Shown here one piece after another: positions 2,633 to 25,560 of a stretch of DNA of 35,612 bases (within the stretch, counting starts at the first letter, position 1; the number at the start of each line of letters is the position of its first letter). The position numbers and the translations under genes were made by a program. Source of the DNA: Leucogyrophana mollusca (lineage: Eukaryota; Basidiomycota; Agaricomycetes; Boletales). The stretch covers positions 1 to 35,612 of the forward strand of contig MU266596.1 of NCBI GenBank assembly GCA_021014945.1, written 5' to 3'. The notes under the pieces were generated by a model. It searched no databases, had not been told where the DNA came from, and saw only the letters and a list, made by a program, of their open reading frames with translations.

Positions 2633-4509
2633 ATGCAGCTCGCTTTCACTTCAATCGTGGCTCTTGCCGTTACTGTTGCATGCGTCCAAGCTTTGCCCGC
2701 ACAGGAAAAACGTGAGCTGAACATGGTTGTTGATCTCTGGCACCACTGACGATGACGAGCTTCAGGCGAGCCCGTCGATTTGGTCAGTCACTTTGTATTG
2801 CACTTTACCTTTGTGTGGCTTTGGACTGATTCTCCGCGGTGTCTCATACAGTTGGACTCCACCCCCGAGAAGCGTAAGTCGAGCACCCCTACCAGCCCCT
2901 GCCATCTGCTAACAATGGTGACCTCAGGTGCACCGATATTCGTCAGTCGGTTTTTCAAATGCCCGAGTATTGTCTTGTGCTGAACAGGTTTCCGGCGCTT
3001 CCCGAATACAGGGCGTTGTGCGTAACATCCTAACTTCCTCGCGTTTTTCTTTTTCAGCGAACCGATTTTCGGCGTTTCGTAATGTAGCCTTTTGTGAGTC
3101 ACTCGAGCATACTTTAAATCGTTTTGTGTGGCATGACTCATTTGCCGCCTCACGTTGTAGTACACCATCGCCGAGGACGAATCTGAGAACGCGGAAGCCA
3201 CCACCGTCGAGAAGCGTAAGTTGAGCGTTTTCATCAGTCCCTGTTACCCCGCTAACAATGGTGACCTCAGGTGCGCCGATCTTCGTTAGTCGGTTTTTCA
3301 AATACCCGAGTATTATCTTGTGCTAAAGACAGGTTTCCGACGCTTCCCACAATACAGGGCGTTGTGCGTAACATCCTAACTTCCTCGCGTTTTTCTTTTT
3401 CAGCGAACTGATTTTCGGTGTTTCGTAATATAGCCTTTTGTGAGTCACTCGAGCATACCCTAAGTAGTTTGTGTGGCAGACTCATTTTCCGCCTCGCGTT
3501 GTAGTACACCATCGCCGAGGACGAATCTGAGAACGTGGAAGCCACCAGCGTCGAGAAGCGTAAGTTGAGCGTCTTCACCAGTCTCTACTACCCCACTAAC
3601 AATGGTGACCTCAGGTGCGCCGATATTCGTCAGTCGGTTTTTCAAATACCCGACTATTGTCTTGTGCTAAACAGGTTTCCGGCGCTTCCCACAATACAGG
3701 GCGTTGTGCGTAACATCCTAGCTCCCTCGCGTTATTCTACTGATTTTCGGTGTTTCATAATATAGCCTTTTGTGAGTCACTTGAGAATACCCTAAATCGT
3801 TTGTGTGGCATGACTCATTTGCCGCCTCGCGTTGTAGTACACCATCGCCGAGGACGAATCTGAGAACGCGGAAGCCACCAGCGTCGAGAAGCGTAAGTTG
3901 AGCACCTTTATCAGTTTCTGCTACCCCGCTAACAATGGTGACCTCAGGTGCGCCGATCTTCGTCAGTCGGTTTTTCAAATACCCGAGTATTATCTTGTGC
4001 TAAAAACAGGCTTCCGACGCTTCCCACAATACAGGGCGTTGTGCGTAATATCCTAGCTCTCTTGCGTTTTTCTTTTTCAGCGAACTGATTTTCGGTGTTT
4101 CGAAATATAGCCTTTTGTGAGTCACTCGAGCATACCCTAAATCGTTTGTGTGGCAGACTCATTTGCCGCCTCGCATTGTAGTACACCATTGCTGAGGACG
4201 AGTCTGAGAACGCGGAAGGCACCACCGTCGAGAAGCGTAAGTTGAGCGTTTTCATCACTCTCTGCTACCCCGTTAACAATGGTGACCCTCAGGTGCCCCG
4301 ACCTTAGTCAGTCGATTTTTCAAGTACCTGGGTATTGTCTTGTGCTAAAAACAGGTTTCCGACGCTTCCCACAATACAGGGCCTGGTGCGTAGCATCATA
4401 GCTACCTCGCGTTATTCTTCTGCAGAGAACTGATTCTCGGTGTTTCATAATGTAGTACCACGTGACTGGGGGCGAGTCTGAGAATACGGAAGCCACCCCC
4501 AAGGTGTGA
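2633..4509 (+). CDS. Precursor A: secreted Kex2-repeat RiPP precursor with YTI cores
   Basis: Modelled as 22 exons that splice to 171 residues. Exon 1 (2633-2711) encodes a signal peptide ending ALPAQEK; the Arg of the KR site is split by the first intron. Exons 2766-2782 and 2852-2873 give a tyrosine-less first segment (EPVDL, LDSTPEKR). Four near-identical 81-nt units follow, each made of four exons (14, 6, 6 and 55 nt) reading APIF, GV, PF and YTIAEDESEN...VEKR. A fifth, shortened unit reads APTL, GL and YHVTGGESEN, ending in a stop at 4507. Every KR codon pair is interrupted by a phase-1 intron; introns inside units are phase 0 and 60-73 nt. The frame closes over all exons, which supports the model. 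By analogy with dikaritins, Kex2 would release tyrosine-containing cores for UstYa-type oxidation, but a linear secreted peptide is also possible. Use of the 6-nt exons is inferred. Confidence 0.8.
2928..4236 (+). repeat. Four tandem ~340-bp exon-intron units of precursor A
   Basis: Exons per unit: unit 1 at 2928-2941, 3012-3017, 3088-3093 and 3161-3215; unit 2 at 3271-3284, 3358-3363, 3434-3439 and 3505-3559; unit 3 at 3615-3628, 3700-3705, 3766-3771 and 3838-3892; unit 4 at 3948-3961, 4035-4040, 4111-4116 and 4182-4236. The Y exons start 344, 333 and 344 bases apart. Introns are as similar between units as exons, pointing to recent amplification or gene conversion. A degenerate fifth unit uses 4293-4306, 4380-4385 and 4456-4509. 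Confidence 0.85.
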
Positions 4510-4900
4510 TTGAGGTGAGCGTTATTATGATCAAGCAGCTGGTCCCGGGCCGTCCCTCACTTAGCTCCTTCCCCAGTCTGCGCTCGAGCCCAAGTCCGTG
4601 CTCGTGGCGAGCTTGACTATCTGGGTATTTAAGACATTTGTGCTCTGCATGGTTTGTTGTGGGAGCGGTCGAGAATGTAATCTTTGTGTTTGTACGAACG
4701 CTTATGTTCACGAATAGAGACGAATAGTAGGAGTGTCGGAGGCGGCACGACCTTGAGTACAAGTGACGCACTTGACATGTGGTATGAGTTCCCCTACCGC
4801 GCCGTCGCAAGAGACTCGGAAGTCCCTCCACTGTGTGAGGATACGAACAAGCCGACGCCACACGAGACTAGATAAGACAGCCGCAGTGTGAACTGTATTC
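4510..4900 (+). repeat. 3' flank shared by the precursor genes
   Basis: This downstream sequence recurs after the precursors at 15337 and 19994, and in reverse complement at 35390-35612. Shared blocks include CTCGAGCCCAAGT, CATTTGTGCTC, GTAATCTTTGTG, GAACGCTTATG and TTGACATGTGGTATGAGTT. It is probably the 3' UTR and terminator of the precursor family. No coding function is seen. Confidence 0.7.
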
Positions 4901-5019
4901 TTAATCAGACGTACTACGCCCTATTTTGTTGAACGGCTGTAATGATCGTGAAGCCTGGGTGACTTCCAGAGTTGACGCTGAGGGCAAAAATCCACCAGCT
5001 GGATATTGAAGTTTTGACG

Positions 5020-5190
5020 GGCGACATACCCGATGTCGGGTCTAACAGTGACATGATCTGTTATTGCAATCAGAACACACGACCGGAGGGCAATCGACTA
5101 TCGCACCGCAACCACACCCAAATTGCGGCGTGGTAATTTGAGCTCCATCCCGTTGCGAGGCTCTGCATAAGATCTCACGGCCGTGGAGGA
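5020..5190 (-). pseudogene. Decayed fragment of the But2-like gene, exon 3
   Basis: The plus strand here retains GACATGATCTGTT, AATCGACTATCGCACCGC, GGTAATTTGAGCTCCATCCC and AAGATCTC in the order found in exon 3 of the intact gene next door (5575-5968), but with many substitutions and gaps. The interval 4901-5493 otherwise holds duplicated 3'-flank sequence (GTGAAGCCTGGGTGACTTCC and similar), with no gene seen. Confidence 0.5.
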
Positions 5191-5493
5191 GTGAATAGGG
5201 AGATTCTCGAGGGCGGGGCGATCTGAAGTGCAGGTGACACGTTCAGCGCTCAACCAACGGGGAGACCTACAAAGGACGACATGTATATATTCTCATATTC
5301 AGGGCGCGACTCGCCGACTTGAATAACTTCGATGAACGTGAAACCTGGCGGGGGACTTCGGGAGTTGACGCTGAGGAAACATAAGGACGGGATGGTAGGA
5401 CAAGGGACTACGAGTACACGACGGGCAAGAAATATACCATGTGTGAGCTAGCAAAGATACCAAGGACACTCGAGATCAAAAGGCTCGTATCCG

Positions 5494-6475
5494 TTAACCA
5501 AGAACCGCCACATCGAACGCTGTTTGAACCAAAATTCATTATCTGGATATTCAAAGGCTCGAGAGGCGACTTACCCAACGCAGGGTCCGACATGATCTGT
5601 TCGAAACTCAGCTTGCAGTCACTGCACGTGACCTCAAAGGCGATCCGACTGTCGCCGCCACAATCAAACAGTGGCGTCGGTGGTCTGAGCTCCATCCCGT
5701 CACGTTCGTCTTCGGGGTTATAGATCTCGGGAGGAGGGGCGAAGTTCACAGTCCCCATGAGCGACTGGCGTGGCGGTCGGGTGTTCCAACTCAACGCCGC
5801 TGGTAGCGCCCAATACGATATGTTCCAAATCTCGATGGCGCTCACATCTCCCTCTGAAACATAACTCTTATTGCTGGACTGTAGCTTTGCTGGAGTGGGC
5901 ACGGGTGCGAAGACATAGCAGGTGCTGTTCGCGGGGTTCTTCATGCGGAAGCGGTAGAACATGGAGTCCTGAAAGAAGATATCAATACGAGATCAACATT
6001 AGATTGGTTGATCACGTACCGATGGACTGAGGGTCACTGTGTTCGAAGTGGTGTACATTCGATCTGGGTCGGCAGCATTGGCGCGCACGATGTAAGGAGG
6101 GAACCAGACCATAGGCGCTGTCTGGGGCGTTAATCCTGCTCGGTCGATGAAAATGTTGGTGCACTCACCAGATTTGAGCTTTCCAGCGTCAGCAAGATGG
6201 TCCAGGTTAGGGTACGGCGTCACTTTCCGCAGGGAAGCGACGAAGTGTGGATTAGACACGTCAACTAAGGACAGCTCGGAAGTGCTGTTGAAGTGCAACA
6301 ACACAGCGACCAATATCGAGATAAGGGATATCATGCTGGTCAACCAGATAATCAAATGGGGCGATTGTTTTTCTGGGGGCTGTCCCTCAAAGAAATGTTC
6401 TGGCGAGGTGCCCTCGTCATCAGGTTTCCCCAGAAGAGGCAGATAAGAATATCGACTTCTTCGCATTGAAGTCAT
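5494..6475 (-). CDS. Membrane-anchored protein with But2-like C-terminal region (copy A)
   Basis: Four exons (6475-6169, 6117-6020, 5968-5575, 5519-5494) splice in frame to 274 residues. The first ~45 residues are basic and proline-containing (RYSYLPLLGKPDDEG). A single membrane segment follows (HLIIWLTSMISLISILVAVL), suggesting a type II membrane or signal-anchored protein. The C-terminal half contains NSTCYVFAPVPTPA, LSWNTRPPRQSLMGTVNFAP and a cysteine cluster (LFDCGG, FEVTCSDCKLSF). It resembles the But2 C-terminal domain family of fungal secreted or membrane proteins; that assignment rests on recognition only. The start at 6475 is chosen because it aligns with copy B; an in-frame ATG at 6502 is possible. 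It converges on precursor A, the same pairing as copy B with precursor D, so a role with the peptide (maturation, export, binding) is plausible but unproven. Confidence 0.8.
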
Positions 6476-6995
6476 GGCAGGGTGTTGAGGAGCAACAACC
6501 AAGCCTCAGTCAAAGTACATTTCGGGATGAGCCTCGGAAGCGAGCAAAGTCTTCGCAGCCTTGTGCACTGATCCGGTAACAGCATCGAACCCCAGCGTTT
6601 GCCCCAACGGGTTCCTAAATGCGAGGAGAACGGCAAAACCGCTCAAGTCAAGTTCAAGTTGCGAAGTGGGTTATGCAGTAACTTAGTGTAGTGTCCGCCA
6701 AGTGGTCGCAGACCGGGGACGACCTACTCGGAGCCGCGGTGGTTGTCGCCCAAAAGGAAAATGAACACAGGACTTATGATTGACGCGTCACACACACAAG
6801 CGCTTGCCCATTGCACCCGATGCTGGGGGAAATCATAGCCTTTGCCACATATTGGACCTCTTACTCTCCCCACTAACTTCACGAGGTCCAAGTCCGAGCT
6901 GAAACACGCGTAAGTCTTGCATCTCGTCATTTGCTGCGCAGTCACACATTGGTATCGCATCTCCAGCTGCAGGACTATTGCTTGGTCGACTCAGA
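6476..6995. other. Divergent intergenic region
   Basis: 520 bases between the starts of the But2-like gene (minus) and the thioesterase-like gene (plus). It probably holds both promoters. No clear TATA box or RNA gene was recognised. Confidence 0.5.
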
Positions 6996-8515
6996 ATGTC
7001 TTCGTCTCGAGCTCAAGCCCGAGATCATCTGCGGGCGCTCACGAAGATACCCCCAATACCAGCACACATCGTCAATAAACTCAATTCTATCCCATCTCTA
7101 TCACGCACCCTTCAAACGGCTGGAAAATACTTATTATACCTCCTCGTCCTAGTCAATGTGCGCTCTTTTCCATTTGCATGGCATAGTGCGTCGCCCTTCC
7201 CCACAACCGATGTCCGTTCCGTCGTACTAAACCGAAGACGAGTCCAGTCCGCGTCTTTCTCCCGGTTATTACCCTCAGAATCAAGTACTACCTCTTCCGC
7301 TTGTCGCTCTTGTTTACTCCCAAAGCGGTGCGGACGAAGTTGATTACAGAGTGGGCGGAAGCTCTGTGCCCAGTTGGTACCAACCCATTCGAGATGACGA
7401 TCGTGCATAAGAGCTGGGCAGGCGAGTCCTCGTATTAAATAATATCGAACGCTACAATGACACTGATCAATACCATGTAGGGATTGATGATTCGGACTAT
7501 AACGGCCACCTAAGTAACTCGAGCTATGCAAAGGTGCGCCCATTCGCGTCATCTGTACCAGTGTCCTAAATCAACACTGCGTGATGTAGACTCTCGATGC
7601 CGCGCGTTGCAAAATTGTGTTGAAATCATTCCCGGCGTTCACGAGGAGCAAGGGATGGTTGGCTCTGGGATGTGAGTAAGGTCTGATACCTTCTCCACCC
7701 TTCAAAGCCGCTTACCTCCCACTCAACATAGCCACTCACTACCATTTTATCCGCGAGATACCCATGTTTGCTAACTACGAGGTCAGGTTGACCATTGGCG
7801 CCTGGGATCACAAATGGGTTGGCATTTTTCATATACCCTATACATGGTTGAGTTAACAGGGCTGTGAGTGTAGATGTACATTATCAGCCGCTTCGTCACA
7901 ACTTCAAGGAAGACCCAACGCAACTATTCCAAGTCCACGAAACCGTCGACATCGTCAACACCCTCCGAACCAGGCGCCCCCAGACTATCGTTGCGCACCC
8001 CCGCGGACGACTTAGCTACGCCGGCTAACGGGGCCCTCACGCCTTCCGAGCCCGCTGGGACGCAGGCAGAACAGACCGCGCGAGCGATGCGAGCGCTCGC
8101 ACGCACCGAGGAGCCTGATGGCGCTACACTGCACTGTATCGCTATCTCCCACATGTGCTTCAAGCACGGCCGGATCACTGTCCCTCCTGCAGTTGCGCTT
8201 GCCTGCGAAGGATTCTCGAAACCGCCGAGTCTCGAGGGTGTGGACGAGTCCTCGTCTCCGAGTCCTAAACTCGCGCCGGCGTACTCCCCATCGAACCCTC
8301 CGCCATCCTGGATACGTGCTCAGGACATCCGTGTTGCGCTGAATGGGAGCATGAAGTCGTACGTCGAGTTCGTGAGAGGCGGGTGGAGAGATGGAGAAGG
8401 AGAGCGTTGGTGGGAGGAAGCGCTGGGGGGCGTCATCGAGGAGCGCCGGAAGGCGAATCTGGCGGTTTTAGAGTCGGTGAGGATTGGGATGGAGGGCAGT
8501 AGGGACATTCGTTGA
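6996..8515 (+). CDS. THEM6-like hotdog-fold thioesterase family protein
   Basis: Six exons (6996-7185, 7248-7421, 7481-7533, 7590-7671, 7732-7817, 7874-8515) give 408 residues in one frame. An N-terminal membrane segment (KYLLYLLVLVNVRSFPF) is followed by WHIRVF and the hotdog-family block NPFEMTIVHKSWAGIDDSDY with NGHLSNSSYAK. Later come LALGSTHYHFIREIPMF and EVRLTIGAWDHKWMY, as in the 4HBT_2/THEM6-like fungal proteins. The C-terminal third has a low-complexity Thr/Ser/Pro insert and ends with the family-like GGWRDGEGERWWEEALGG. The second intron needs a GC donor (CAG|GCGAGT); GT alternatives nearby give stops. Likely an acyl-thioester hydrolase of the endomembrane system and ordinary cell metabolism. 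Its position between two precursor genes may be accidental. Confidence 0.85.
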
Positions 8516-8996
8516 TATCCCGCTAATCGTGGAGTAACTACAGCTTTAGAAGTCGGTATTTATTCTCGCGGTCCCTAAGGACGCACTCAACTTAGAATTG
8601 TTCTAAGTTCCTTACCGCCATACTCGTCTTCGGGGTCACAGACGTCAGGGGAGGCATGAAGCTGATGGTGTCCAAGAGTGGTTGAGATCTTGTCCAAACC
8701 GGGACAGTGCCGACGACTGAGTCGAGAAAAAGACATAAAATTTCATTGAAATAAACCTCTACACAACCGCACGCAATTACTGAGTAGAACTTCAGTAGTT
8801 CAGTATGGAGTCCATTCAAAGCTATTGAAGCCAGCCATGCGCATAACTATCAACATTTCAATCTCAGGAAAACAACGGATCTTGCGAGCATCTACATTTC
8901 CGACCCCTGTCTGCGTGCGTTTCCTCAACGTGCTGGACCTGGACATGTAAGCGATTTGAGGACAACTACAGCCGCACAACCGTCATTTTACCTACC
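8516..8996. other. Convergent intergenic region with a possible But2-like relic
   Basis: This lies between the 3' ends of the thioesterase-like gene (plus) and precursor B (minus). The stretch about 8617-8690 weakly resembles the complement of But2-like exon 3 (CGTCTTCGGGGT, then GGAGG, GAAG and TCC blocks in matching order). No open gene is supported. The rest is probably 3' UTR of both neighbours. Confidence 0.35.
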
Positions 8997-10900
8997 TCAA
9001 TCCAAGTCCCCGCCAGTGATGTCGTACGCTTTCTATGGGGGTAGCGATATTAGTTTGGCACTGAAACAGCTTGGGGCGCCAGGAGCGTCACTAACCCGGT
9101 CAGGCTCGCCTGACGACTCTACTCGTCAGCGAAATCTCAGATCAAAAAGGACAATGGGCTCACGAGTCTCGATGTCCCCGCCAGTTATGTCATAACCTTT
9201 CTGTTGAAGGGGAAAGAGGTCAGCCGGATGCTCAGGGCAACCCTTGAAGTGCCGGAAAACAACTAACGCGGTCACCTGAAGGTCTCAATCATTAGCGAGG
9301 GAGACAAATCATTAAGATAACTGAGCTTACGGGTTTCGATATCCCCTCCGGTGATGTCATAACCTTTCTATTAGAGTAGGAAGAAATCAGTCAGACGCGC
9401 AAGCCAGCCCTTGAAGTGTTGGAAAGCAACTAACACGATCACCTGCAGATCTCAATCATCAGCGAAGTGGACAAATAAACTAAGATGGCTGTGCTTACGG
9501 GTCTGGATATCTCCGCCAGTTATGTCGTAACCTTTCTGTTGGAGAGGCGAGAAATCAGCCAGATGCCCAGCAGTGCAAGAAAGCAACCAACGCGGTCACC
9601 TGAAGACCTCAACCGTCAGCGAAGCGGATGGATCAACCAAGATGACTTTGCTTACGGGTTTCGATATCCCCGCCAGTAATGTCATAACCTTTCTATTGAA
9701 GAGGCAATAGATCAGCAAGATGCGCGAGTTACCCTCGAGGTGCCAGAAAGCAACTAACGCGGTCACCTGAAGATCTTTATCATCAGCGAAGTGAACAAAT
9801 AAACTAAGATAACTGAGCTTACGGGCCTCGATATCCCCGCCAGTGATGTCATAACCTTTCTATTGTGGAGGCAAGAAATCAGCCAGATGCGCAAGCTAAC
9901 CCCCGGAGCACTAGGAAATAACTAACGCGATCACCTGAACATCTCAATCGTTAGCGAGGTGGACAGATCAACCAAGATAACTGAGCTTACGGGTCTCAAT
10001 GTCCCCTCCGGTGATGTCATAACCTTTCTATTGGCGAGGCAAGGAATCAGCCAGGTGCCAGAGCCAAGCTGAAGTACTAGAAAGCAACTAACGCGATCGC
10101 CTGAAGATCTCAGTCGTGAGCGAATTGATCGTATAAACTATGATGACTGCGCTTACGGGCCTCGATATCCCCGCCAGTGATGTCATAGCCTTTCTATTGT
10201 GGAGGCAAGGAATCAGTCAGATGCACAAGCCAACCCTTGAGGTGCTAGAAAGCAACTGACGCGATCACCTGAAGACCTCAATCGTTAGCGAGGTGGACGA
10301 ATCAACCAAGATAACTGAGCTTACGGGTCTCAATGTCCCCTCCAGTGATGTCATATCCTTTCTATGGTGGGGAGTCAGTCCGGCGCTGACAGTAAATCCG
10401 CAGTGCCGGCGCGTCACTTACACGGTCACCTAGAGCGCGAGTGGTCAGTGAACGCACGAGATCACAGACGAAGCTAAGCTCACGCTTCTCAACGTCCCCG
10501 CCGGTGATATCGTACCCTTTCTACAGTACACAGCGCCGAAAATAAGTCGGGCACACTAGCAATTGAGGTTTCAGGGAGATGACTAACCCGGTCGGGAATG
10601 CCTGAGATCCCCCTCGTCAGCGGGCATCCAGCCAATGATACCAATCAACTTACGCTTCTCAATGTCCCCGCCTGTAATATCGTACCCTTTCTATACCGTG
10701 AAAAGGATATCAGCCTAGCATTCTGAGGTACTGGAGGTGACTGTGGAACACTGACACGATCCGGAACACCTAAATATCAGGTCAGCAACATTGAGCTGGG
10801 CAACGACGGGAATCGTACGTTTTTCCTGGGCAGGTAAAGCCTGAGCGCCGGCGATGAACACAGCGAGAGTGATGATGAAAGACTTGATAGTGAGCTGCAT
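8997..10900 (-). CDS. Precursor B: 11-repeat secreted precursor with GYDITGG cores
   Basis: Modelled as 23 exons that splice to 197 residues. Exon 1 (10900-10819) encodes a signal peptide ending QALPAQEK, with the Arg split by an intron. Then 8- or 14-nt linker exons alternate with eleven 36-37-nt core exons. Core exons are at 10690-10654, 10520-10484, 10361-10325, 10193-10157, 10027-9991, 9859-9823, 9692-9656, 9535-9499, 9367-9331, 9200-9164 and 9032-8997. Linkers of 14 nt (10769-10756, 10601-10588, 9109-9096) read VPDR, IPDR and EPDR; eight others of 8 nt read only DR. The core reads KGYDITGGD(I/V)E followed by KR in the first two copies and by TR or AR in the rest. The last reads KAYDITGGDLD and then a stop. 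The frame closes exactly. Loss of KR in later copies suggests they may be released differently or not at all. GYDI also occurs in precursor D, linking the families. Confidence 0.82.
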
Positions 10901-10954
10901 TGTAGTGAAGCCTGAAGAGATGAGCTGGAATATCGAAGTAGAGACTAGTAGACT

Positions 10955-10961
10955 TTATATA
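10955..10961 (-). promoter_or_regulatory. TATA box of precursor gene B
   Basis: On the minus strand TATATAA lies about 55 bases upstream of the ATG at 10900. It differs from the TATAAAAGGAG core promoter of precursors A, C and D. Confidence 0.55.
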
Positions 10962-11129
10962 ATTTCCATGCTACTTACAGCCTTTAAGGCCAGAAGCTCC
11001 CCGGACACTGTTGGGGACCACACTATTAACGCATGGGTTTAGGCCCGATTGCTAGTACGCAAACTGCTATATTATTCGTGGTCCCCGATGCAGAGCACTG
11101 GAGAATGGTTTCCGAATCCGAAACGATTG

Positions 11130-11789
11130 TACGTGGTTATGGCAGACTCGGAACATCGTCGCTATTGACTTGTATTCCCCTTGGTACTAGTGCTTGCATG
11201 CCTTGTGCACGACAGAAACGAACAGCCATACATGTCTAAGGCCAGTCAATCCGACGTCTGCTCGGGATAAGTACGTTCTTCAATGGAAGCTCGACTAGCT
11301 GATGTGGAAACTCACTCGTGGTGACCTCGCAGTGCATAACCAACTGGTTCAGTAATCAGTTTGCAAGTTTAGGACAATTCACCAGCTCCGGATGCAGCAC
11401 ACGTGCGGCTAATTCTTCTAATCGGGGACACCAGTGTAACCGCGCTTTGCAGGCAACGAGCAAGTATCCACATAACCCAGACACCCAAGGAAAGTCGCGC
11501 AACCAACTACAGTTGCCATTAGCACGGGTGACGGGTATGACACAGGCCGGAGCAAATGCCGTGTTTTTGGTGGACTTTAGGGTGGGGGATATTTCCTCGA
11601 CGAGAATAGGATGTGGAGTAAGAATGTGATGGATCCCACCCTGACGAGATCTCCATTCACCACCTACGCTTCCATGCTTCAAGTTGGGACCCGAGGGACA
11701 GGGACGGGCTCACCACCATGCATTCGTTCATTTATCCTGTCGGGCACTCCATGACGCCGTCGACCCTTGGAGGCCTCAACACCGACCAT
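11130..11789. other. Duplicated stretch without a supportable gene
   Basis: This sequence recurs at 15.62-16.27 kb. On the minus strand both copies can be read as HPILVEE-SPTLKST followed by a hydrophobic stretch (copy 2: VGCALSLGVWVMWIL). This may be the remnant of a small membrane-protein gene, but stops and frame differences prevent a gene call. Confidence 0.35.
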
Positions 11790-11920
11790 TTGTCACTGCC
11801 TAAACACGCTTAGCGTACACCACCTACGCACTGAGTTGGCGAACACTGAACCTCGTGTTTTCGCTGACGATAGGTACAGTACAGTGAGTGTCCTGTACAA
11901 TTTCACTGGGACTCAACGGG
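11790..11920 (+). pseudogene. UstYa-like exon 1 relic (first copy)
   Basis: Translates as CLNTLSVHHLRTELANTE followed by PRVFADDR, aligned with residues ~20-44 of the intact UstYa-like protein at 21842-22558 (CLNALTIHRLRTQLANAE, SRVFTDD). The splice-donor neighbourhood (GAGTGTCCTGTACAA) is also retained. The start codon and membrane-segment codons are not intact and the other exons do not follow. It lies on the strand opposite to the exon 3 relic nearby, so the old gene was broken and rearranged. Confidence 0.75.
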
Positions 11921-12874
11921 CCGCTGGGTTCAGGTCTAGGCTACCAAGACTATGTATGAAGCTTCAATACCTTGAACAAGCAGGTTCGCGGAACGTTGAT
12001 CAGAGACGTACCACCTAATGAAGCGCTTCGATGGATAATTGACAGAAATTCAGCACTACAATGGCAGGCAAACCGCAGTGAACGACGCACATAAAACCAC
12101 CCAATTGCCAGTGGTTACTCATCAGGTGTGCTACATCAGGAAAGCGGGGAGTCGCTGATACGACCAGGCTTTCACTGGGCAATGCGCTGTAGTACAACGC
12201 GTTTAAGTGTGGCCCAAAAGCGAGAACTTCAGGGTGAAAGATGCGGAACCTTCCCGTTTGGGCCTGACGGCCTGGCGATTCGGCAAATCCCGTTCGTTCC
12301 TCCTCGACCCCCAACCTGAGGCTCACTCAGGTTTTGCCACGATGTTCTCAGTGCAGCTCAGCCTGGATCACCGGAGCGAGGTATGTATCATGATTCGGCT
12401 TTGGAACAAGGTGAGCTTGAGGACACAGGCTCTGTAACCAGAGCTCATCGAGGTGCGAGGCTTCTCAGCGCGATTCTGGGTGGCTTCGCGAAGATCAAAA
12501 GCGAAAGTCGCCGCCGTATCCTTCCTCGCTCGACGGAGCCGTCCGCTGAGGAACTGAAGAGGTGTGTTGCAGAGCTCTAGTCAAGCATTTATCGCAGCCT
12601 CACGATTGTGTTTGATAAGTCGTTGCCTTCTTTTTGAGACGGTTTCGTCGATCATGCAAAGATATTATCGTAATTGAGCACTGAACCATCTCTATGCCGT
12701 CGCAAGCTGGTGTCGCTATAAGCTCTAAGATTCACAGAACATCAAGACCCCTGCTCTAAACCACTATTAATGAACCCAGTATAGGTCCACATTTTAAGTA
12801 TCGCGCAGCCAATCCAAGATTGTTGACACGACTCCAGGCCCGTCCTAATCATTCCAACGCAGAACGAGTAGATC
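11921..12874. other. Duplicated stretch without a supportable gene
   Basis: Recurs at about 16.40-17.46 kb with indels (shared blocks include GCCTGACGGCCTGGCGATTC and GCCTCACGATTGTGTTTGAT). Short open frames are not conserved between the copies. I see no gene. Confidence 0.4.
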
Positions 12875-13103
12875 TCCGTGCTGTTCCACGTTGCGCTTAT
12901 CTGGTTCACCCGCACGAACTTGTACTTACACTTTCACTTCCATCAGATCTAAAGTCCTATCGCTCGCCCTGAGAATTGCCTGGCGCATGAGATTGAGACA
13001 ACGGTGTGTGTGAGCGTCTGCGCTATTATTCTCGATGACGGCCTGACGGGTCATTTGCAGGCGATGCATATGGTGGAACATGCTGATGCCAAACACATAC
13101 GAC
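12875..13103 (-). pseudogene. UstYa-like exon 3 relic (first copy)
   Basis: The minus strand shows the remnant of the conserved block: MFHHMHRLQM replaces the intact FHQMHCLQM, and THRCLNLMRQ replaces THHCLNLMRQ. Cysteines of both HxxHC motifs are affected: the first is lost, and the second motif loses its final His before Cys. A two-base insertion near the old splice acceptor shifts the frame, and a stop follows in place of the C-terminal third. Clearly non-functional. Confidence 0.8.
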
Positions 13104-13195
13104 CTGGCAGTGTACTTCAGTGCACCGAGTCTCGAAGGAACGCAGCAAACATACCTTGCTTTTCGAGATCACCTAAACACTCTGTTACTAAAACG

Positions 13196-13740
13196 GTGCA
13201 GCTTACTTTCACTTCCATCGTCTCTCTCGCCGTCTTTATTACCAGCGTTCGCGCTCTGTTAGCACGGGAGAAGCGTAGACTCTCGCTTTGCCATGACCCC
13301 TGATGCGGTGCTGATTGGGACATCTACAGGCAAGCCCATGATGTCCCCGGTCGGTCACCCTTCGCTATCCTCCCAAGGCACCAATATTCGGCGGACCGAG
13401 GCCGACTCTTTTCTGCCGTGTGTCGTATATGCATGCGTATGATGTAGGGCAAGATAAGTTCTTTGACTTTATTTTCGCGCGCGGCGATGCTTTATTCTGG
13501 TGGCGGTGGGCCCACTCGCGGCATCTCATATATTCGCTGAGGACGCCTCGACTGCTGGTCGTGCGAAAAGGGATGCCCCAACTCCTAGCACGGACGCCAA
13601 CGCGGCTAGGGATTCCACCGTTGGGAAGCGTAAGCTTAACAATTAGTTAATATCTTTTTCGATCCGTGCGTGTGACACTATGCTGACGATTGAGATCCCC
13701 AGGCGAGCCCCTCGATGTCGGTCGGTTTCGACCGCCCTAC
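13196..13740 (+). pseudogene. Decayed precursor gene with lost start codon (first copy)
   Basis: A signal-peptide exon like those of precursors A-D is present (QLTFTSIVSLAVF, ending in EKR split by an intron), but the ATG is now GTG at 13196. After a short KPMM-type exon, a longer exon about 13530-13630 reads FAEDASTAGRAKR then DAPTPSTDANAARDSTVGKR, followed by an intron and EPLD. The splice acceptor before that exon is lost when compared with the TTGTAG acceptors of the intact precursors. It is a third precursor type, dead here. Confidence 0.7.
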
Positions 13741-14513
13741 TATTTGCTTTGTGCGAGAGGTAAAATTTCAGCCGAATCTCAACCTCACCGCCCTTGGCGT
13801 CTAAAACCATATCTACAAGGGCCATAGTTCCGGTAATACTTCTATGCCTTAATTCGAACCGCCTCTGTTTGACTTTTCTGATAGTTTCCAGAAATTACTA
13901 TCTCCGTAGCATTGGTCCGTGAATGATCCACCTACTTCCAGTTGATACCATGTATGGAGTCGGTCGGGATAGGCTTGGAGTTGTCTGTTCGCTCGCAAGC
14001 CGCGGGCCCCGGAGGCGCGACTCCATACGACTTTTACACAGACGATCGGTGGGTATTTGGGTTAGTAGTGATGGGCCGGTTGTGGTTGTTGGAGAGCATG
14101 TGGGTCCTCGGGTGACTCGTGAGTGATCCATGTGGACCGTTAAAACACAGTCTCCAAGCGCACTATGAACGATGGGATGATCGCATATTTGGCCGCGGGC
14201 TATGATGCATGTGAGGCCATGAGTCCCCGGTACGTCGTGTGTCCCATTCTTGCTCCTTATGTGATTGAAGGCCCATTCGAATACTGAAGCGAAATCCGAA
14301 CCTACCATGGTCAAGCGTACTGGATGTTTGGCGAATCACAAAGGGCTTTGCATATGCGACATCATCTTAGCTTTCGCCACTCACTCCACCCCACGAATGC
14401 ACACTCCCAAGCCTTCGCGCTCGCTTCTGAGTATCATCAATTCATCAATGGATCTGTAAATGTGGACTAGAACGCTCGGAGGAAATTCAATGTTGCCAGC
14501 GAAACCGAAATCG
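13741..14513. other. Duplicated stretch upstream of precursor C
   Basis: Recurs at about 18.06-18.83 kb. Both copies hold ATGGAGTCGGTCGG followed by a short open frame with TPYDFY, but the frame differs (stop after DDW in copy 2, extended in copy 1), so no gene is called. The last ~70 bases form the shared precursor promoter. Confidence 0.4.
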
Positions 14514-14520
14514 TATAAAA
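14514..14520 (+). promoter_or_regulatory. TATA box of precursor gene C
   Basis: TATAAAA lies 63 bases before the ATG at 14583, inside the GTATAAAAGGAGCCCAAAC block shared with precursors A and D. Confidence 0.75.
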
Positions 14521-14582
14521 GGAGCCCAAACCACCAGCCAAATCATCCTTCCTTCATATCGATATCGCCCTATCTCACAACA

Positions 14583-15337
14583 ATGCAGTTCACTTTCACT
14601 TCAATCATGGCTCTTGCCGTCGCTGTTGCATGCGTCCAGGCTTTGCCTGCACAGGAAAAACGTGAGCTGAACGCGGCCATAGATCTCTGGCAACACTGAC
14701 GATGATGAGCTTCAGGCGAGCCCGTCGATTTGGTCAGTCACTTTGTAATACACTTACCTGTGTGCGGCTTTGGACTGATTCTCCGCGGTGTCTCATACAG
14801 GTGGTCGGTTCTTTTTTGACACTATTAGAAATGATTTGTGCAGCAGCCTGACTTTCGTCGTGTCTCATCTAGCCCGGAGTGAGTCACTTGCCAGGACTGA
14901 TATATTTACCTAGTGCTGAAAGCTGATTTTCCATCTCGTGATATAGGATGGTAGCGGTAACGACGGATCTAGTGTTATCTCCACCGTCGGGAAGCGTAAG
15001 TTGAGCATTTTATCAGTCTCTGCTACCCCGCTAACAATGGTGACCCTCAGGTGCGCCAATCATGGTCAGTCGGTTGTCGAATACCTGGATATTGTCTCGT
15101 GCTAAACACAGGTTTCCGACGCCTCACACAATACAGCCCCCCGTGCGTAGCACCCTAGCTCTTTCGCGTGTTCCTTTTGCAGCGAACTGATTTTCTCCAT
15201 TTCACAATATAGGTCGGTGTGAGTCACTTGAGAATACCCTAATTTTTTTGCGCGACAAACTCATTTGTCACCTCGCGTTGTAGTACTTCATGGCCGAGGG
15301 CGAATCCGAGAACGCGGAAGCCACCCCCAAGATGTGA
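14583..15337 (+). CDS. Precursor C: short Kex2-repeat precursor, one YFM core
   Basis: Modelled exons 14583-14661, 14716-14732, 14801-14803, 14873-14878, 14947-14995, 15051-15064, 15137-15142, 15213-15218 and 15284-15337 give 77 residues. The signal peptide ends ALPAQEK and the Arg comes from exon 2 (EPVDL). The first unit has lost its tyrosine: after the 6-nt exon PG it reads DGSGNDGSSV... and ends GKR, where precursor D has YDI. The second unit reads APIM, PP, VG and YFMAEGESENAE and ends in PKM and a stop, with no terminal KR. The 3-nt exon (GTG) is needed to give eight residues between KR and the Tyr position, as in other units, and it splits a 140-base gap into introns of 68 and 69 nt. 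Promoter and 3' flank match precursors A and D, so the gene could still be expressed. Confidence 0.72.
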
Positions 15338-15610
15338 TTGAGGTGAGCATCATTACGGTCAGGCAGCTTGTCTTGGGCTGTTTCTCACCTTGCTTCATCC
15401 GTAGTCTTTGCTCGAGCCCAAGTTAACGCTTGTGGCACTGGGTGTTTAGGGCATTTGTGCTCTGGTGTTTGTTGTAGAGGCGGTCGAAAATGCAATTTTT
15501 ATGCTTGTGTGAACGCTTATGTTAGGGGGTACTGGAGGCTGAATGACCTTGGGTACGAGGGACGTGCTTGACATGTGGTATGAGTTCTCTCGTTACACAA
15601 GTTTCGGGCT
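15338..15610 (+). repeat. 3' flank of precursor C
   Basis: Matches the 3' flank of precursors A and D (CTCGAGCCCAAGTT, GGGCATTTGTGCTC, TTGACATGTGGTATGAGTT). It ends where the second copy of the tandem duplication begins. Confidence 0.65.
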
Positions 15611-16269
15611 TCGCCGTAAGTACGTGGTTATGGCAGACTCGGAACATCGTCGCTATTGACTTGTATGCCCCTTGGTACTAGTGCTTGCATGCCTTGTGCA
15701 CGACAGAAACCGAACAGCCATACACGTCGAAGGCCAGCCAATCCGACGTCCGCTCGGGATAAGTACGCTCTTCGATGGAAGCTCGACTAGCTGATGTGGA
15801 AACTCACTCGCGGTGACCTCGCAGTGCATAACCAATTGGTTCAGTAATCAGTTTACAAGTTTTAGGACAATTCACTGGCTCCGGATGCAGAGCACACGCG
15901 TGACTAATCCTTCTAATCGGGAACACCAGTGTATCTGCGCTACGCAGGCAACGCGCAAGTATCCACATAACCCAGACACCCAAGGAAAGCGCGCAACCAA
16001 CTACAGTTGCCATTAGCACGGGTGACGGGTAAGAACACAAACCGGAGCAAATGCCGCGCTTTCGGTGGACTTTAGGGTGGGTGACATTTCCTCGACGAGA
16101 ATGGGATGTGGAGTAAGAACGTGATGGATCCGCCCCTGGCGGGGTCTCCGTTCTTTATCTACGCCTCCGAGGGACAAAGACAGGCTCATCACCATGCATC
16201 CGTTCATTTGTCCCGTCGAGCACTCCACGACGCCGTCGACCCTTGGAGGCCTCAACATCGACCATTCGT

Positions 16270-16395
16270 CTCTGCCTGAACACACTTAGCGTACACCATC
16301 TACGCACTGAGTTTGGCGAACACTGAACCTCGTGTTTTCGCTGACGGTAGGTACAGTACAGTGAGTGTCCTGTACAATCTTACTGGGACCCAACG
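16270..16395 (+). pseudogene. UstYa-like exon 1 relic (second copy)
   Basis: The duplicate of the relic at 11790-11920. The same LRT...LANTE and RVFADD coding blocks are present, but an extra T (CTGAGTTTGGCGAACACTG) shifts the frame. The block to 17469 (about 1.07 kb) is the non-genic duplicate of 11.9-12.9 kb, in which I see no gene. Confidence 0.7.
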
Positions 16396-17469
16396 GACCA
16401 CTGGGGTCGGGTCTGGGTTACAAGGGCGAACACTATTTATTAAGTTTTAATAACGTGAACAAGTAGCTGCGCAGAACGTTGATCAGAGGCGTACCACTGA
16501 TGAAGCGCTTCTATGAATAAATTGGCAGAAATTCAGCACTACGCTGGCAGGCAGACAGCAGTGAACGACGCACGTAAATCACCCAATTGCCAGTGGTTAC
16601 TCATCGTGTGTGCTACATCAGGAAACTGGGGAGTCGCTGATATGACCAGGCTTTTGCTGAGCAATGCCTTGAGTGTGGCCCAAAGGCTGGGACTTCAAGT
16701 TGAAAGATGCAGGACTTTCCCGTTTAGGCCTGACGGCCTGGCGATTCGGCGAACCCCGCTCGTTCCTCCTCGACCCCCAACTTAGATTCACTCAGGTTCC
16801 TCCCCGATATTCTCACTAGCACGCTCACGCTCAGCTGCCCCCACCCTCTTGATGACATGCAATGCCCATTCTACAGATCTCCGCGACGGCCTCGCTAGCG
16901 AAACGAAAAGATGCCCAACGCGCGTTTTTTCTGGTATGAGCTGTCACATGGCTTGACTGGCGACCCATCGGACTGCAACTCAGCCTGGATTACCGGAGCG
17001 ATGCGTGTATCATGGTTCGGCCTTGGAACGAGGGGAGCTTGAGGACACAGGCTCTATAGCCAGAGCTCATCGAGCCGCGAGGCTTCTCAGCGTGATTCTG
17101 GGTGGCTTCGCGAAGATCAAACGCGAAAGCCGCCACCGAACACGAGTCAAGCATTTATCGCAGCCTCACGATTGTGTTTGATAAGTCGTTGCCTTCTTTT
17201 TGAGACGGTTTCGTCAATCATGCAAAGATATTATCGTAATTGAGCACTGAACCATCTCTATGCCGTCGCAAGCTGGTGTCGTTATTAGCTCAGTAGCTCT
17301 GTGATCTATAGAACATTAGGACCCCTGCTCTGAACCACTATTAATGAACCCAGTATAGGTCCACATGTTTGAATCAAGTATCGCGGAGCCAATCCACGAT
17401 TGTCGACACGACTCTAGGCCCATCCTAATCACCCCAACGCAGGACGAGTAGACCCGTGCCTCACACGCT

Positions 17470-17760
17470 CGTGCTGCTCCACGTGGCGCTCATCTGGTTC
17501 ACCCGCACAAACTCGTACTTACACTTTCTCCCAATCCCGACAAACGTGTACGACGCCAATTCCATCTGTTCATACTAATGTACCAGTATGGTCCACTTTC
17601 ATTAGATCTAAAGTCATATCGCTCGTGCAGAGAATTGCCTGGCGCATGAGATTGAGACAATGGTGCGTGTAAGCGTCTGCGCTGTTCTTCTTGATGACGG
17701 CCTTACGGATCATTTGCAGGCAATGGACCTGGTGGAACATGCTGGTGCCAAACATACGAC
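17470..17760 (-). pseudogene. UstYa-like exon 3 relic with a nonsense codon (second copy)
   Basis: The minus strand keeps the acceptor and most of exon 3: MFGTSMFHQVHCLQMIRK and YTHHCLNLMRQAILC, so both HxxHC motifs are intact. A stop at 17570-17572 (TGA where the intact gene at 21842-22558 has GGA) cuts off the C-terminal block that follows. Exons 1 and 2 are missing: the sequence upstream of the acceptor is joined to a decayed precursor instead. A younger or slower-decaying relic than the one at 12875-13103. Confidence 0.85.
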
Positions 17761-17789
17761 CTGGCAGTATACTTCAGCGGACTGAATCT

Positions 17790-18060
17790 CGAAGGAACGC
17801 AGCAGGCTTATTCGCGGCATCTTATATGTTCGCCGAGGACGACTCGGCTGCTGGTGCTGCGAAAAGGGATGCTCCGACTCCTAGCGTGGACGCCAACGTG
17901 GCTAGGGATTCCACCGTCGAGAAGCGTAAGCTTAACGATTGGTTAATGTCCCTTTCGACCTGCGCGTGTGACGTTATGCTGACGATTAAGATCCCTCGGC
18001 CAGCCCTTCGATGTCAGTCGTTTTCGAATGCCCTACTATTTGCTTTGTGCGAGAGGTAAA
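17790..18060 (+). pseudogene. Decayed precursor fragment without signal peptide (second copy)
   Basis: The exon about 17827-17925 reads FAEDDSAAGAAKR and DAPTPSVDANVARDSTVEKR, then an intron and PFDV. Relative to the copy at 13196-13740, the signal-peptide exon and upstream introns are deleted: GAAGGAACGCAGCA now runs straight into GCGGCATCTTATATG. An ATG at 17826 could open a short frame but it has no secretion signal. Probably not functional. Confidence 0.7.
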
Positions 18061-18833
18061 GTTTCCGCTGAATCTCAACTTACCGCACTCAGCATCCAAA
18101 ACCACATCTATAAGGGCCATAGTTCCAGTAATACCCTTTACGCCCCACCTCGAACCCTCTGTTTGACTTTTCTGATAGTTTCCAGAAACTACCATCCCCG
18201 TAGCATTAGTCCGTGATTGATCCACCTACTTCCAGCTGATGTCAGGGATGGAGTCGGTCGGAATAGGCCCGGAGTTGTCTGTTCGCTTGCAAGCCGCGGG
18301 CCTGCTGGAAGCCTCTGGAGTGGCGACTCCATATGACTTTTATGTAGATGATTGGTGAGTATTTGGGTTAGTAGTGATGGGCCGGTTGTGGGTTGTTGGA
18401 GGTTGTTGGAGAACATGTGGGTCCTCGGGTGACTCGCGAGTGATCCATGTGGATCGTTAAAACACGGTCTCCAAGCGCACTGTGAATGATGGGATGATCG
18501 CGTATTTGGCGCGGGCCATGATGCACGAGAGGCCATGAGTCACTGGTACGTCGTATGTACCATTCTCCATTCTTGCTCCTATGTAATTGAAGGTCTATAT
18601 TAACACCGAAGCGAAAGCCGAACCTACTATGGTCGAGCTTACTGGATGTTTGGGTTTTGCATATGCGATGTCATCTTAGCTTTCACCACTCACCCTACCC
18701 CACGCCGCCCCACGAACGCACGCTCTCCCAGGCCTTCGCGCTCGCCTCTGAGTATCATGAATTCATCAATGGATCTGTAAATGTGGACTAGAACGCTCGG
18801 AGGAACCCAATGGTGCCAGCGAAACCGAAATCG
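18061..18833. other. Duplicated stretch upstream of precursor D
   Basis: Duplicate of 13.74-14.51 kb. No gene is supported. Its 3' end carries the shared precursor promoter. Confidence 0.4.
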
Positions 18834-18840
18834 TATAAAA
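18834..18840 (+). promoter_or_regulatory. TATA box of precursor gene D
   Basis: TATAAAA lies 63 bases before the ATG at 18903, in the same promoter block as precursors A and C. Confidence 0.75.
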
Positions 18841-18902
18841 GGAGCCCAAACCACCAGCCAAATCATCCTTCCTTCATATCGATATCGCCCTATCTCACAA
18901 CA

Positions 18903-19994
18903 ATGCAGCTCGCTTTCACTTCAATCATGGCTCTTGCCGTCGCTGTTGCAAGCGTCCAGGCTTTGCCTGCACAGGAAAAACGTGAGCTGAACGTGGTTGT
19001 TGATCTCTGGTACCACTGACGATAATGAGCTTCAGGCGAGCCCATCGATTTGGTCAGTCACTTTGTAATACACTTACCTGTGTGCGGCTTTGGACTGATT
19101 CTCCGCGGTGTCTCATACAGGTGGTCAGTTCTTTTTTGACACTTTAAGAAATGTCTTGTGCAGCAGCCTGACTTTCGTCGTGTCTCATCTAGTTCGGAGT
19201 GAGTCACTTGCCAGAACTGATATATTTACCTAGCACGGAAAGCTGATTGTCCATCTTCTAATATAGTACGATATCGCCAAAGAAGAATCTAGTGTTGTGG
19301 ACACCGTCGAGAAGCGTAAGTTGAACATTCTTATCAGTCTTTGCTACCTCGCTGACAATGGTGACCTTCAGGTGCGCCAATCATGGTCAGTCAATTTCAT
19401 ACCCGGGTATTGTCTTGTGCTAAAAACAGTTTCCCGGCGCCTCACACAATACAGCCCCCCGTGCGTAGCATCATGGCTCTTTCGCGTTTTCTTTTCCAGC
19501 AAACTGATTTTCCCCATTTCCGAATATAGGTTGGTGTGAGTCACTTAAGTACCCTGAATTATTTGTGCGGCGGACTCATTCGCCGCCTCGCATTGTAGTA
19601 CTTCATAGCAAAGGACGAGTCTGAGAATGCGGAGGGCACCACCGTCGAGAAGCGTAGGTTGAGCACCTTTATCAGTTTCTGCTACCCCGCTAACAATGGT
19701 GTCCCTCAGGTGCGCCAATAATGGTCAGTCGATTGTCAGATACCGGGTAGTGTCTTGTGCTAAAAACAGTTTTCCGACGCTTCCCGCAATACAGCCCCCT
19801 GTGCGTAGCATCCTAGCTCCTCCGCGTTTTTGTTTTGCAGCGAACTAATTCTCGCCGTTTCGCGATATAGGTTGGTGTGAGTCACTTCAGCATACCTTAA
19901 ATTATTGTGCGACAGACTCATTTTCCGACTCGCATTGTAGTACTTCGTGGCCGAGGGCGATTCTGAGAACGCGGAAGCCTCCCCCAAGATGTAA
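18903..19994 (+). CDS. Precursor D: Kex2-repeat precursor with YDI, YFI and YFV cores
   Basis: Modelled exons 18903-18981, 19036-19052, 19121-19123, 19193-19198, 19267-19315, 19372-19385, 19455-19460, 19530-19535, 19599-19653, 19710-19723, 19795-19800, 19871-19876 and 19941-19994 close to 104 residues. After a signal peptide ending ALPAQEK, three units follow: EPIDLVFGYDIAKEES... to VEKR; APIMPPVGYFIAKDES... to VEKR; and APIMPPVGYFVAEGDS ending PKM and a stop at 19992. All three have eight residues between KR and Tyr if the 3- and 6-nt exons are used. All introns are 55-71 nt. It is the most complete of the short precursors and sits beside intact But2-like and UstYa-like genes, so it is the best candidate for a working precursor in this window. 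Confidence 0.8.
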
Positions 19995-20520
19995 TCGAGG
20001 TGAGCATTATTACGGTCAGGCAACTTGTCTTGGGCTGTTTCTCACCTAGCTTCATCGGTAGTCTTCGCTCGAGCCCAAGTTCATGCTTGTGGCATCTGGG
20101 TATTTAAAACATTTGTGCTCTAATGTTTGTTGTAGGAGCAGTTGAGAATGTAATCTTTGTGCTTGTATGAACGCTTATGTTAGAGGGTACTGGAGGCTGA
20201 ATGACCTTAAGTACGAGGGACGTGCTTGACATGTGGTATGAGTTCTCTCACTACACAAGTCTCGGGAGTCCCTTCGCCGTAATTGACAGGAAACACACAA
20301 CCTGACGCCACCCGAGGCACCTTGACAGCCGCAGCGTGTACTACCAGACGTACTGAATTATTGAACGACTTTAATGACCATGACACCTGGGGGATTTTCC
20401 AGATTTGACACTGAGAGTGCGTGTTGAGGCAGGACAATATGATGGGCAAGAAAATAGACTGTTTCGTGAACGGACGAAATTTTACATGGGACACCCTCGA
20501 AATTAAACGCCTCCTGTCCA
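19995..20520 (+). repeat. 3' flank of precursor D and intergenic tail
   Basis: Bases up to about 20275 match the precursor 3' flank (CTCGAGCCCAAGTTCATGCTT, GTAATCTTTGTGCTTG, TTGACATGTGGTATGAGTT; longest shared run under 20). The rest is the 3' side of the But2-like gene and matches 5.3-5.45 kb (ACCTGGGGGA, TTGACACTGAG). No gene is seen. Confidence 0.6.
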
Positions 20521-21501
20521 TTAAGCAAGGACCGCCACATCGAACGCTGTCAGAACTAAAATTCACTGCCTGGATGCCCCGAAGATAAAGAGGTGAGTTA
20601 CCTAGCGCGGGATCCGACATAATCTGCTGGAAGCTCAGCTTGCAGTCGCTACACGCGACCTCAAAGGCGATCTGACTATCGCCGCCACAATCAAACAGCG
20701 GTGTCGGTGGTCTGAGCTCCATCCCGTCGCGATAGTCTTCGGGGTTAGAGACCTCGGGAGGAGGGGCGAAGTTCACGGTCCCCATGAGCGACTGACGTGG
20801 TGGTCGGGTGTTCCAGCTCAGGGCTGCCGGTAACGCTGAATACGACACATTCCAAATCTCGATTGCGTTGACGTTTCCTTCGGCTACGTAAGTCTTGTTG
20901 CTGGACTGAAGCTTAGCAGGAGTAGGGACCGGCGCGAAGACATAGCAGGTGCTGTTCGCGGGGTTCTTCATGTGAAAGCGGTAGAACATGGAATCCTGCA
21001 AGACGTTGCCCAAGCGGATTCATCAAATATGGGGTAAATCGACGTACTGATGGGCTGAGCGTCACCGACTGCGACGTGGTGTACATGCGATCTGGGTCTG
21101 CAGCATTGGCGCGCACGATGTAAGGAGGGAACCAAGCCTTGGGTGCTGTTCGATGCGTCAGTCCAGTCTACTCGACGAAGAATATAAGCATACTCACCAG
21201 ATTTGAGCTTCCCGGCGTCGGCAAGATGGTTCAGGTTAGGGTACGGCGTCACTTTCCGCAATGACGCGACAAACTTTGGATCAGAAACGTTGAGGAAAGA
21301 GGAAAGTTCGGAAGCGCTGCTGAAGTGCAACAATACCGCCACTAGGACCGAGACAAGAGACGCCATGGACGTCAACCAAAGAATGGCAGGGGGTGATTGG
21401 TGTTTTTCCTCGATGAAACGTTCTGGCGAGATACCTTCGTCATCGGGCCCGCCAAGAAGAGGCAAGTAAGAGTGATGATGAGTCCTTTGTACTGAACTCA
21501 T
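20521..21501 (-). CDS. Membrane-anchored protein with But2-like C-terminal region (copy B)
   Basis: Four exons (21501-21198, 21145-21048, 20995-20602, 20546-20521) match copy A exon for exon and give 273 residues. The same layout is present: HSYLPLLGGPDDEG, one membrane segment (WLTSMASLVSVLVAVLLHF), then FVASLRKVTPYPNL, NSTCYVFAPVPTPA, LSWNTRPPRQSLMGTVNFAP and LFDCGG...CSDCKLSF. The intron between exons 1 and 2 is 52 nt here and 51 nt in copy A, with preserved phase. It converges on precursor D and lies about 340 bases from the UstYa-like gene on the same strand. Both copies are intact, which argues for selection. Function unknown; But2-like naming is tentative. Confidence 0.82.
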
Positions 21502-25514: not shown

Positions 25515-25560
25515 CAATGCACACTTGAGGCTTGATGCATCAAGCCTCAAGTGTGCATTG
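25515..25560. repeat. Perfect 46-bp palindrome
   Basis: Two 23-base arms with no spacer: each arm reads CAATGCACACTTGAGGCTTG then ATG, and the second arm is its exact complement, centred on ATGCAT. The bases just outside do not pair. It lies in non-coding sequence between the DUF6533 and kinase genes. It could extrude a hairpin or cruciform, mark an old inversion or transposon footprint, or reflect an assembly join. Confidence 0.95.

Follow-up and report, generated by a model that had tools for sequence, protein, structure and literature searches.

How does a fungus encode a peptide core whose residues appear to be scattered over exons of three and six nucleotides (nt)? The question is raised by contig C270 of the 32.3-Mb genome of Leucogyrophana mollusca (Boletales), a stretch of 35,612 bases that we refer to as the window. 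Three genes on its plus strand, precursor A (2633-4509), precursor C (14583-15337, deposited as BV22DRAFT_1133250) and precursor D (18903-19994, deposited as BV22DRAFT_1122900), each begin with a hydrophobic leader, judged by eye to be a signal peptide, and continue into units delimited by EKR or DKR. Analysis of the DNA sequence makes it very probable that these genes form a family of multi-core precursors, the cores of which are spliced together from in-frame coding micro-exons.

Gene models were rebuilt by script from explicit acceptor, exon and donor patterns. The coding sequences (CDS) of A, C and D measure 516, 234 and 315 nt; all three lengths are divisible by three, and each CDS ends in frame at a stop codon. 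Two paralogues with the same layout, E on contig C231 and F on contig C391, were modelled as well. All five models end in frame, their introns measuring 54-73 nt. The typical core consists of a 14-nt exon and two 6-nt exons, or of exons of 17, 3 and 6 nt, placed before an exon that starts with Tyr. In precursor A, an EPVDL segment without a micro-exon (unit 0) is followed by five KR-delimited units, four reading APIF-GV-PF-Y and one APTL-GL-Y. The 14-nt core exon of unit A1 (2928-2941) precedes the hexamers GGCGTT (Gly-Val; 3012-3017, acceptor gaatacag, donor gtgcgtaa) and CCTTTT (Pro-Phe; 3088-3093, acceptor taatgtag, donor gtgagtca). The same two hexamers recur at 3358-3363 and 3434-3439 in A2, 3700-3705 and 3766-3771 in A3, and 4035-4040 and 4111-4116 in A4; the 14-nt core exons of the further units of A lie at 3271-3284, 3615-3628, 3948-3961 and 4293-4306. 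A5 has a single 6-nt exon, GGCCTG (Gly-Leu; 4380-4385), the second being absent and the Tyr exon (4456-4509) standing directly next. Unit C0 carries a 3-nt exon GTG (Val; 14801-14803) and a 6-nt exon CCCGGA (Pro-Gly; 14873-14878), and C1 carries CCCCCC (Pro-Pro; 15137-15142) and GTCGGT (Val-Gly; 15213-15218). The corresponding exons of D are GTG (Val; 19121-19123) and TTCGGA (Phe-Gly; 19193-19198) in D0, CCCCCC (Pro-Pro; 19455-19460) and GTTGGT (Val-Gly; 19530-19535) in D1, and CCCCCT (Pro-Pro; 19795-19800) and GTTGGT (Val-Gly; 19871-19876) in D2.

A preliminary description of this DNA had counted seventeen 6-nt and two 3-nt exons, and our script arrived at the same totals: nine, three and five hexamers in A, C and D, with one 3-nt exon each in C and D. 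All are whole codons in phase 0, symmetric as had been described, so that every combination of inclusion and omission keeps the frame (parses with introns of 45-300 nt). Two other generalizations of that description proved too broad. A 14-nt exon followed by two micro-exons is found in A1-A4, C1, D1 and D2; C0 and D0 read 17+3+6, A5 has one micro-exon and unit 0 of A none. Likewise, eight residues precede the Tyr in A1-A4, C1, D0, D1 and D2. There are six in A5, and C0 has Asp instead of Tyr. Among the paralogues the number varies from six (unit 1 of E) through seven (unit 2 of E and a more distant gene, G) to eight (F). The cores read APIFGVPF in A1-A4, APIMPPVG in C1, D1 and D2, APLLLLI in E2 and APLGAAFL in F, with Tyr next in all of them.

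The splice signals around the micro-exons are strongly patterned. In the window, the first hexamer is preceded by the acceptor AATACAG, the second by ATATAG or ATGTAG and that of unit 0 by TCATCTAG; the donors are GTGCGT after the first hexamer and GTGAGT after the second. The conserved flanking signals noticed earlier are therefore real, apart from the weak donor GTCGGT that follows the 3-nt exon of C0 and because of which C0 has no parse under a strict donor rule. Intron sizes had been put at 55-73 nt with the micro-exons and at about 140 nt without them. The introns are indeed all short (54-73 nt) when the micro-exons are included; the larger figure applies when one is omitted (137-149 nt), and omission of both leaves introns of 209-220 nt (nine two-micro-exon units, E and F included). 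Introns in chaperonin genes of the same genome were estimated at 49-91 nt, with 16 of 18 at 61 nt or less; these 18 were kept out of 23 gaps, five having been dropped for a profile gap or overlap of more than 12 positions.

It had been argued that such an arrangement is unlikely to arise by chance. The argument from a constant eight residues is not general, as seen above, and the chance expectation was estimated by shuffling. Eight of the nine units with two micro-exons (A1-A4, C1, D1, D2 and F1; E2 was left out) were shuffled to give 3200 sequences in all, with dinucleotides preserved and the outer six bases kept. A 6+6 parse appeared in none of these, a parse whose internal exons were all at most 9 nt long in 7, and any in-frame parse at all with introns between 45 and 90 nt in 145. 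When the starts of the core exon and the Tyr exon were fixed in the genuine units and the same intron limits applied, 16 of 17 could be parsed with the micro-exons, and in 13 no other parse existed; G6, the exception, fails because its last acceptor is AAG. For D0, 17+3+6 is the only parse. It could be objected that the hexamers lie within larger exons, beginning for example at an upstream CAG inside the intron. A CAG does occur some 24-30 nt before the end of the first and second core introns in most units of A-F (it is absent from the second intron of A3), and A1, C1 and D1 each admit one competing parse. No alternative is common to all units, and the other 13 admit the micro-exon parse alone, so we give a pattern of larger exons almost no credence.

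The copies in the window are relatives of one another, so counting them lends the micro-exons little weight; the strong test is divergence between genes. Nine of the 11 units have both micro-exons (A5 and E1 were left out), and in an alignment of these nine that spans the 14-nt exon through to the Tyr exon, the hexamers always occupy the same columns. Across A4, C1, E2 and F1, we counted differences at 21/36 and 23/36 sites of the two hexamers (44/72), compared with 194/1089 in the rest of the introns and with 0/36, 0/36, 3/36 and 0/36 (3/144) in the acceptor and donor hexamers that flank them. Among 217 six-column windows of this set, the two hexamers rank first and second in diversity (Fisher p = 7e-15, hexamers against introns). 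Three other choices of units agree, the least clean splice figure over the four sets being 6/36, and all nine aligned units together give 102/216 and 104/216 in the hexamers against 1048/6391 in the introns. Since the pairs are not independent, p-values serve here and below as guides only. Two six-base islands of near-saturated change set within nearly fixed splice sites are not what would be expected of unused intron DNA. The pattern supports the view that evolution has treated the hexamers as coding sequence bounded by splice sites. At the level of sequence, the canonical splice sites and the coding role expected of a micro-exon are both in evidence.

Within single genes, the results are less uniform. 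The distant gene G, on contig C58, contains six units of the form EPIGE-FS-Y, and its 465-nt CDS closes in frame. Its hexamer shows one synonymous change over the six units (5/90 pairwise differences), compared with 236/885 and 203/812 differences in its introns (439/1697; 25-27%; p = 2e-6 from non-independent pairs). The hexamers of A1-A4 are identical (0/72 differences), although here the introns differ by only 7-10%, and D1 and D2 are separated by one synonymous change. The intron after the G micro-exon is homologous to the intron that follows the second micro-exon of A-F (profile search, best E 3e-10), so that the second micro-exon predates the split of G from A-F. The same intron also matches the one after the unit-0 hexamer, at 5.6e-6 for C0 and only 0.018 for D0. 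Evidence for a common origin of the core introns themselves is slight: pairwise z-scores are mostly low, with one pair in gene D reaching 6.5, and profile searches between intron positions gave weak results, with an E of about 0.01 at best. That the introns arose by copying is at most suggested.

The deposited annotation partly agrees with and partly contradicts the micro-exon models, and we take it as mild support. Deposited D contains the V and FG of unit 0, and deposited C contains the PP and VG of C1. Each of the resulting segments, EPIDLVFG in D and APIMPPVG in C, arises from one in-frame GT-AG chain (one of 103 and one of 73 enumerated, respectively), and in both cases this is the micro-exon chain. 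The start of deposited D lies upstream of a TATAAAA box, and we therefore take this model to be largely ab initio rather than based on cDNA. In two protein searches with A-type queries, each scoring a capped list of about 8000 candidates, the matches listed (1 and 6) were all from L. mollusca, and none of them represented A or G.

Several observations weigh against our interpretation. Deposited C and D together include 4 of the 10 micro-exons and omit 6: PP and VG are absent twice from D, which joins APIM straight to Y in both later units, and V and PG are absent from C, which joins EPVDL straight to the residue Asp. The deposited model of E (P0002) reads APFR-VS-Y, contains neither set of micro-exons and lacks the unit-2 core; inspection of the sequence by eye found no splice chain that would yield APFR-VS-Y. 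C0 looks partly decayed, one unit of G (G6) has the AAG acceptor mentioned above, and in a further gene, J (contig C267, minus strand), the micro-exon splice sites of one unit appear by eye to be mutated. In addition, the residues themselves change inside genes A and E (GGCCTG in A5 as against GGCGTT in A1-A4; TTCGGT in E1 as against CTCCTT in E2), which implies that cores can also diversify within a single gene. Finally, all gene comparisons were made within one species, L. mollusca.

One alternative is that the hexamers are unused. The 14-nt exon would then be spliced directly to the Tyr exon across an intron of about 140 or 210-220 nt, and what look like splice sites would be relics. The APIM-Y junctions in two units of deposited D are what this would predict. 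Relics, however, would drift like intron DNA, and the hexamers do not: between genes their divergence is about three times that of the introns, within G it is far lower than that of the introns, and their edges are nearly fixed. Deposited C, moreover, includes both PP and VG. We consider it very improbable that the hexamers are relics.

Precursor B, on the minus strand of the window (8997-10900), provides an internal control for the splicing of very small exons. Its units read (D/VP/IP/EP)RKGYDITGGD.. and its model contains three 14-nt exons and eight 8-nt exons (10422-10429, 10261-10268, 10093-10100, 9927-9934, 9759-9766, 9592-9599, 9435-9442 and 9268-9275). With the 8-nt exons, a 594-nt CDS is open to its stop; without them, the frame is broken and many stops appear. 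A paralogue on contig C391 has nine 8-nt exons and is likewise frame-broken if they are skipped, the 3' end of this model being still open. Since 8-nt exons are not whole codons, they cannot be skipped without breaking the frame of B, and if B is functional, the fungus must splice 8-nt exons in most B transcripts, as judged from its sequence. A protein search with B gave one match, which looks like low-complexity sequence.

Alternatively, the micro-exons of A, C and D might be cassette exons whose regulated or random inclusion yields up to four cores per unit, which in D would be APIM-Y, APIM-PP-Y, APIM-VG-Y and APIM-PP-VG-Y. Any combination of the 3- and 6-nt exons is in frame, some micro-exons are included and others omitted in deposited C and D, and A5 and E1 keep their frame without a second micro-exon. 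Skipping, however, would require introns of 137-220 nt, compared with 49-91 nt for the 18 chaperonin-gene introns, and the 8-nt exons of B are unskippable. On balance, we regard cassette splicing as rather unlikely. Related to it is a broader proposal that we put forward as a tentative possibility: the hexanucleotide cassettes may represent variable core slots, which diverge about threefold more than introns between genes, can be lost in frame and are possibly combined by alternative splicing into a small library of cores.

In A5 and E1, which lack the second micro-exon, the intron measures 69-70 nt in each case and the frame is intact; deletion is the simplest cause. One might also suppose that the A-F family consists mostly of decaying duplicates, its pattern copied from one ancestral accident. 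C0 lacks its Tyr, one unit of J has lost its splice sites, and precursor-like fragments are present on the plus strand near 13573-13800 and 17830-18010, before C and D, where they are apparently duplicated with long flanking DNA (by eye). As against this, the frames of A, C, D, E, F and G are open and the G micro-exon is conserved relative to its introns, and we find general decay highly unlikely. We also rejected an assembly artefact, since the agreement extends over five genes from three contigs and to G on a fourth.

Two further genes extend the range of small exons. Gene J carries exons of 6 and 15 nt, and its model equals the deposited protein P0006; the pattern for J was written after P0006 had been seen, and the model needs one 429-nt intron. 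In two adjacent units of J, the micro-exon splice sites are intact in one and mutated in the other, which makes the pair a natural loss series. In gene H on contig C289 (about 4200-4385 of locus L048), the 6-nt exon TACGAT (Tyr-Asp) itself holds the Tyr (NRKA-YD-IVWDIIRD). The same TACGAT precursor family is present on the minus strand of contig C193 (locus L049), the gene model referring to C289 only.

We propose the following route from gene to peptide. The precursors would be secreted, Kex2-type, multi-core proteins resembling those of dikaritins, with cleavage expected at KR. Each core would be assembled from an exon of 14 or 17 nt, one or two micro-exons of 6 nt (or a pair of 3 and 6 nt) that keep the frame, and then the Tyr exon, with introns of 54-73 nt in between. 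The splicing that would include the micro-exons in the mRNA probably proceeds by intron definition, in which short introns are recognized as units and removed in turn; a study of intron definition in S. pombe is cited in PMC11121469. If each intron is recognized as a unit, the two ends of a 6-nt exon would not have to be bound simultaneously, and exon size would matter little. The Tyr that follows the variable stretch is, by analogy, a likely site of UstYa chemistry or crosslinking. Diversifying selection on the peptide could drive the variability of the hexamers and, as the variable stretch is largely encoded by micro-exons, much of the change in peptide from gene to gene would fall on them.

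The surroundings of the precursors fit this proposal in part. A match to UstYa (DUF3328, PF11807), representing a candidate gene for a Tyr-crosslinking enzyme, adjoins precursor D at 21878-22138 on the minus strand, as would be expected of a dikaritin or Kex2-processed repeat (KEP) cluster, and a second UstYa-like match with one internal stop is located at 17522-17764, also on the minus strand. For contigs C58 (G) and C231 (E), the PF11807 scan listed no UstYa match, which counts against such an assignment. Across the same genome there are 35 UstYa (PF11807) matches on 17 contigs, counted exon by exon, and hence a large repertoire of candidate peptide clusters. Two copies of one gene, at 5408-6502 and 20207-21501 on the minus strand, follow A and D; the gene may belong to the peptide clusters, and none of the three open reading frames scanned matched Pfam. 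For A itself, Pfam gave a doubtful HTH_psq match, with no single stretch passing alone, and a CHX17_2nd match below the cut-off. Elsewhere in the window, positions 25516-25559 form, by eye, a perfect 44-base palindrome with two 22-base arms and no loop.

If the genes are expressed as modelled, their peptides could not be predicted from standard gene models (deposited C and D each lose part of a core), and genome mining for fungal ribosomal peptides would miss or misread cores that are so finely split. The family would also constitute a natural, repeated test of the smallest exon that an intron-definition spliceosome can handle, since exons of 3, 6 and 8 nt, together with losses, occur in paralogous contexts in one genome.

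How do these genes compare with known systems? The precursors of dikaritins and KEPs, such as ustiloxin, phomopsin, asperipin and epichloecyclin, are described as having a signal peptide, KR-flanked repeated cores, a core Tyr and UstYa enzymes (PMC9233826, PMC9769878, PMC9632046), the Tyr of dikaritins being the site of UstYa chemistry (PMC9233826). The L. mollusca genes resemble them in their predicted signal peptide, in cores placed between KR sites, in a Tyr in the core region and in a nearby UstYa gene. They differ from the precursors as described there in that the part of each core ahead of the Tyr exon is divided among exons of 3-17 nt. A search for exons of dikaritin precursors in openly licensed PubMed Central papers gave a single paper, in which the word 'exon' refers to gene-prediction methods. 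Among openly licensed full texts of that archive, we found neither stacked 3-6-nt exons within peptide cores nor a paper linking micro-exons with fungal ribosomally synthesized and post-translationally modified peptides.

The micro-exon genes (MEGs) of schistosomes, to which the preliminary description had likened this family, are characterized by secreted products, very small symmetric exons and rapid evolution (PMC4350168). Small symmetric exons, rapid evolution and, as predicted, secretion are shared by the L. mollusca genes. The bulk of a MEG coding sequence lies in very small symmetric exons, whereas here micro-exons contribute only 54/516, 21/234 and 33/315 nt in A, C and D, the remainder being in exons of 14-79 nt, so the L. 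mollusca genes work like MEGs at most in part. They also differ in being fungal, in having introns of 54-73 nt and in carrying their micro-exons within tandem peptide cores, and we found no evidence of a common origin.

Single micro-exons have already been reported from fungi: a single 20-nt exon in Trichoderma Xlr2 that was missed by the deposited gene model (PMC11121469), a 1-nt exon with read support in Fusarium CYP621A and an 8-nt exon in a Phanerochaete P450 gene (both PMC12940212). In the literature that we searched, single micro-exons are established in fungi and stacked ones carrying a peptide core were not encountered. The L. mollusca exons resemble these precedents in being very small internal exons between canonical introns. 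Unlike those lone exons, which encode conserved motifs, they stand two or three in a row, make up a variable core and are repeated up to five times per gene.

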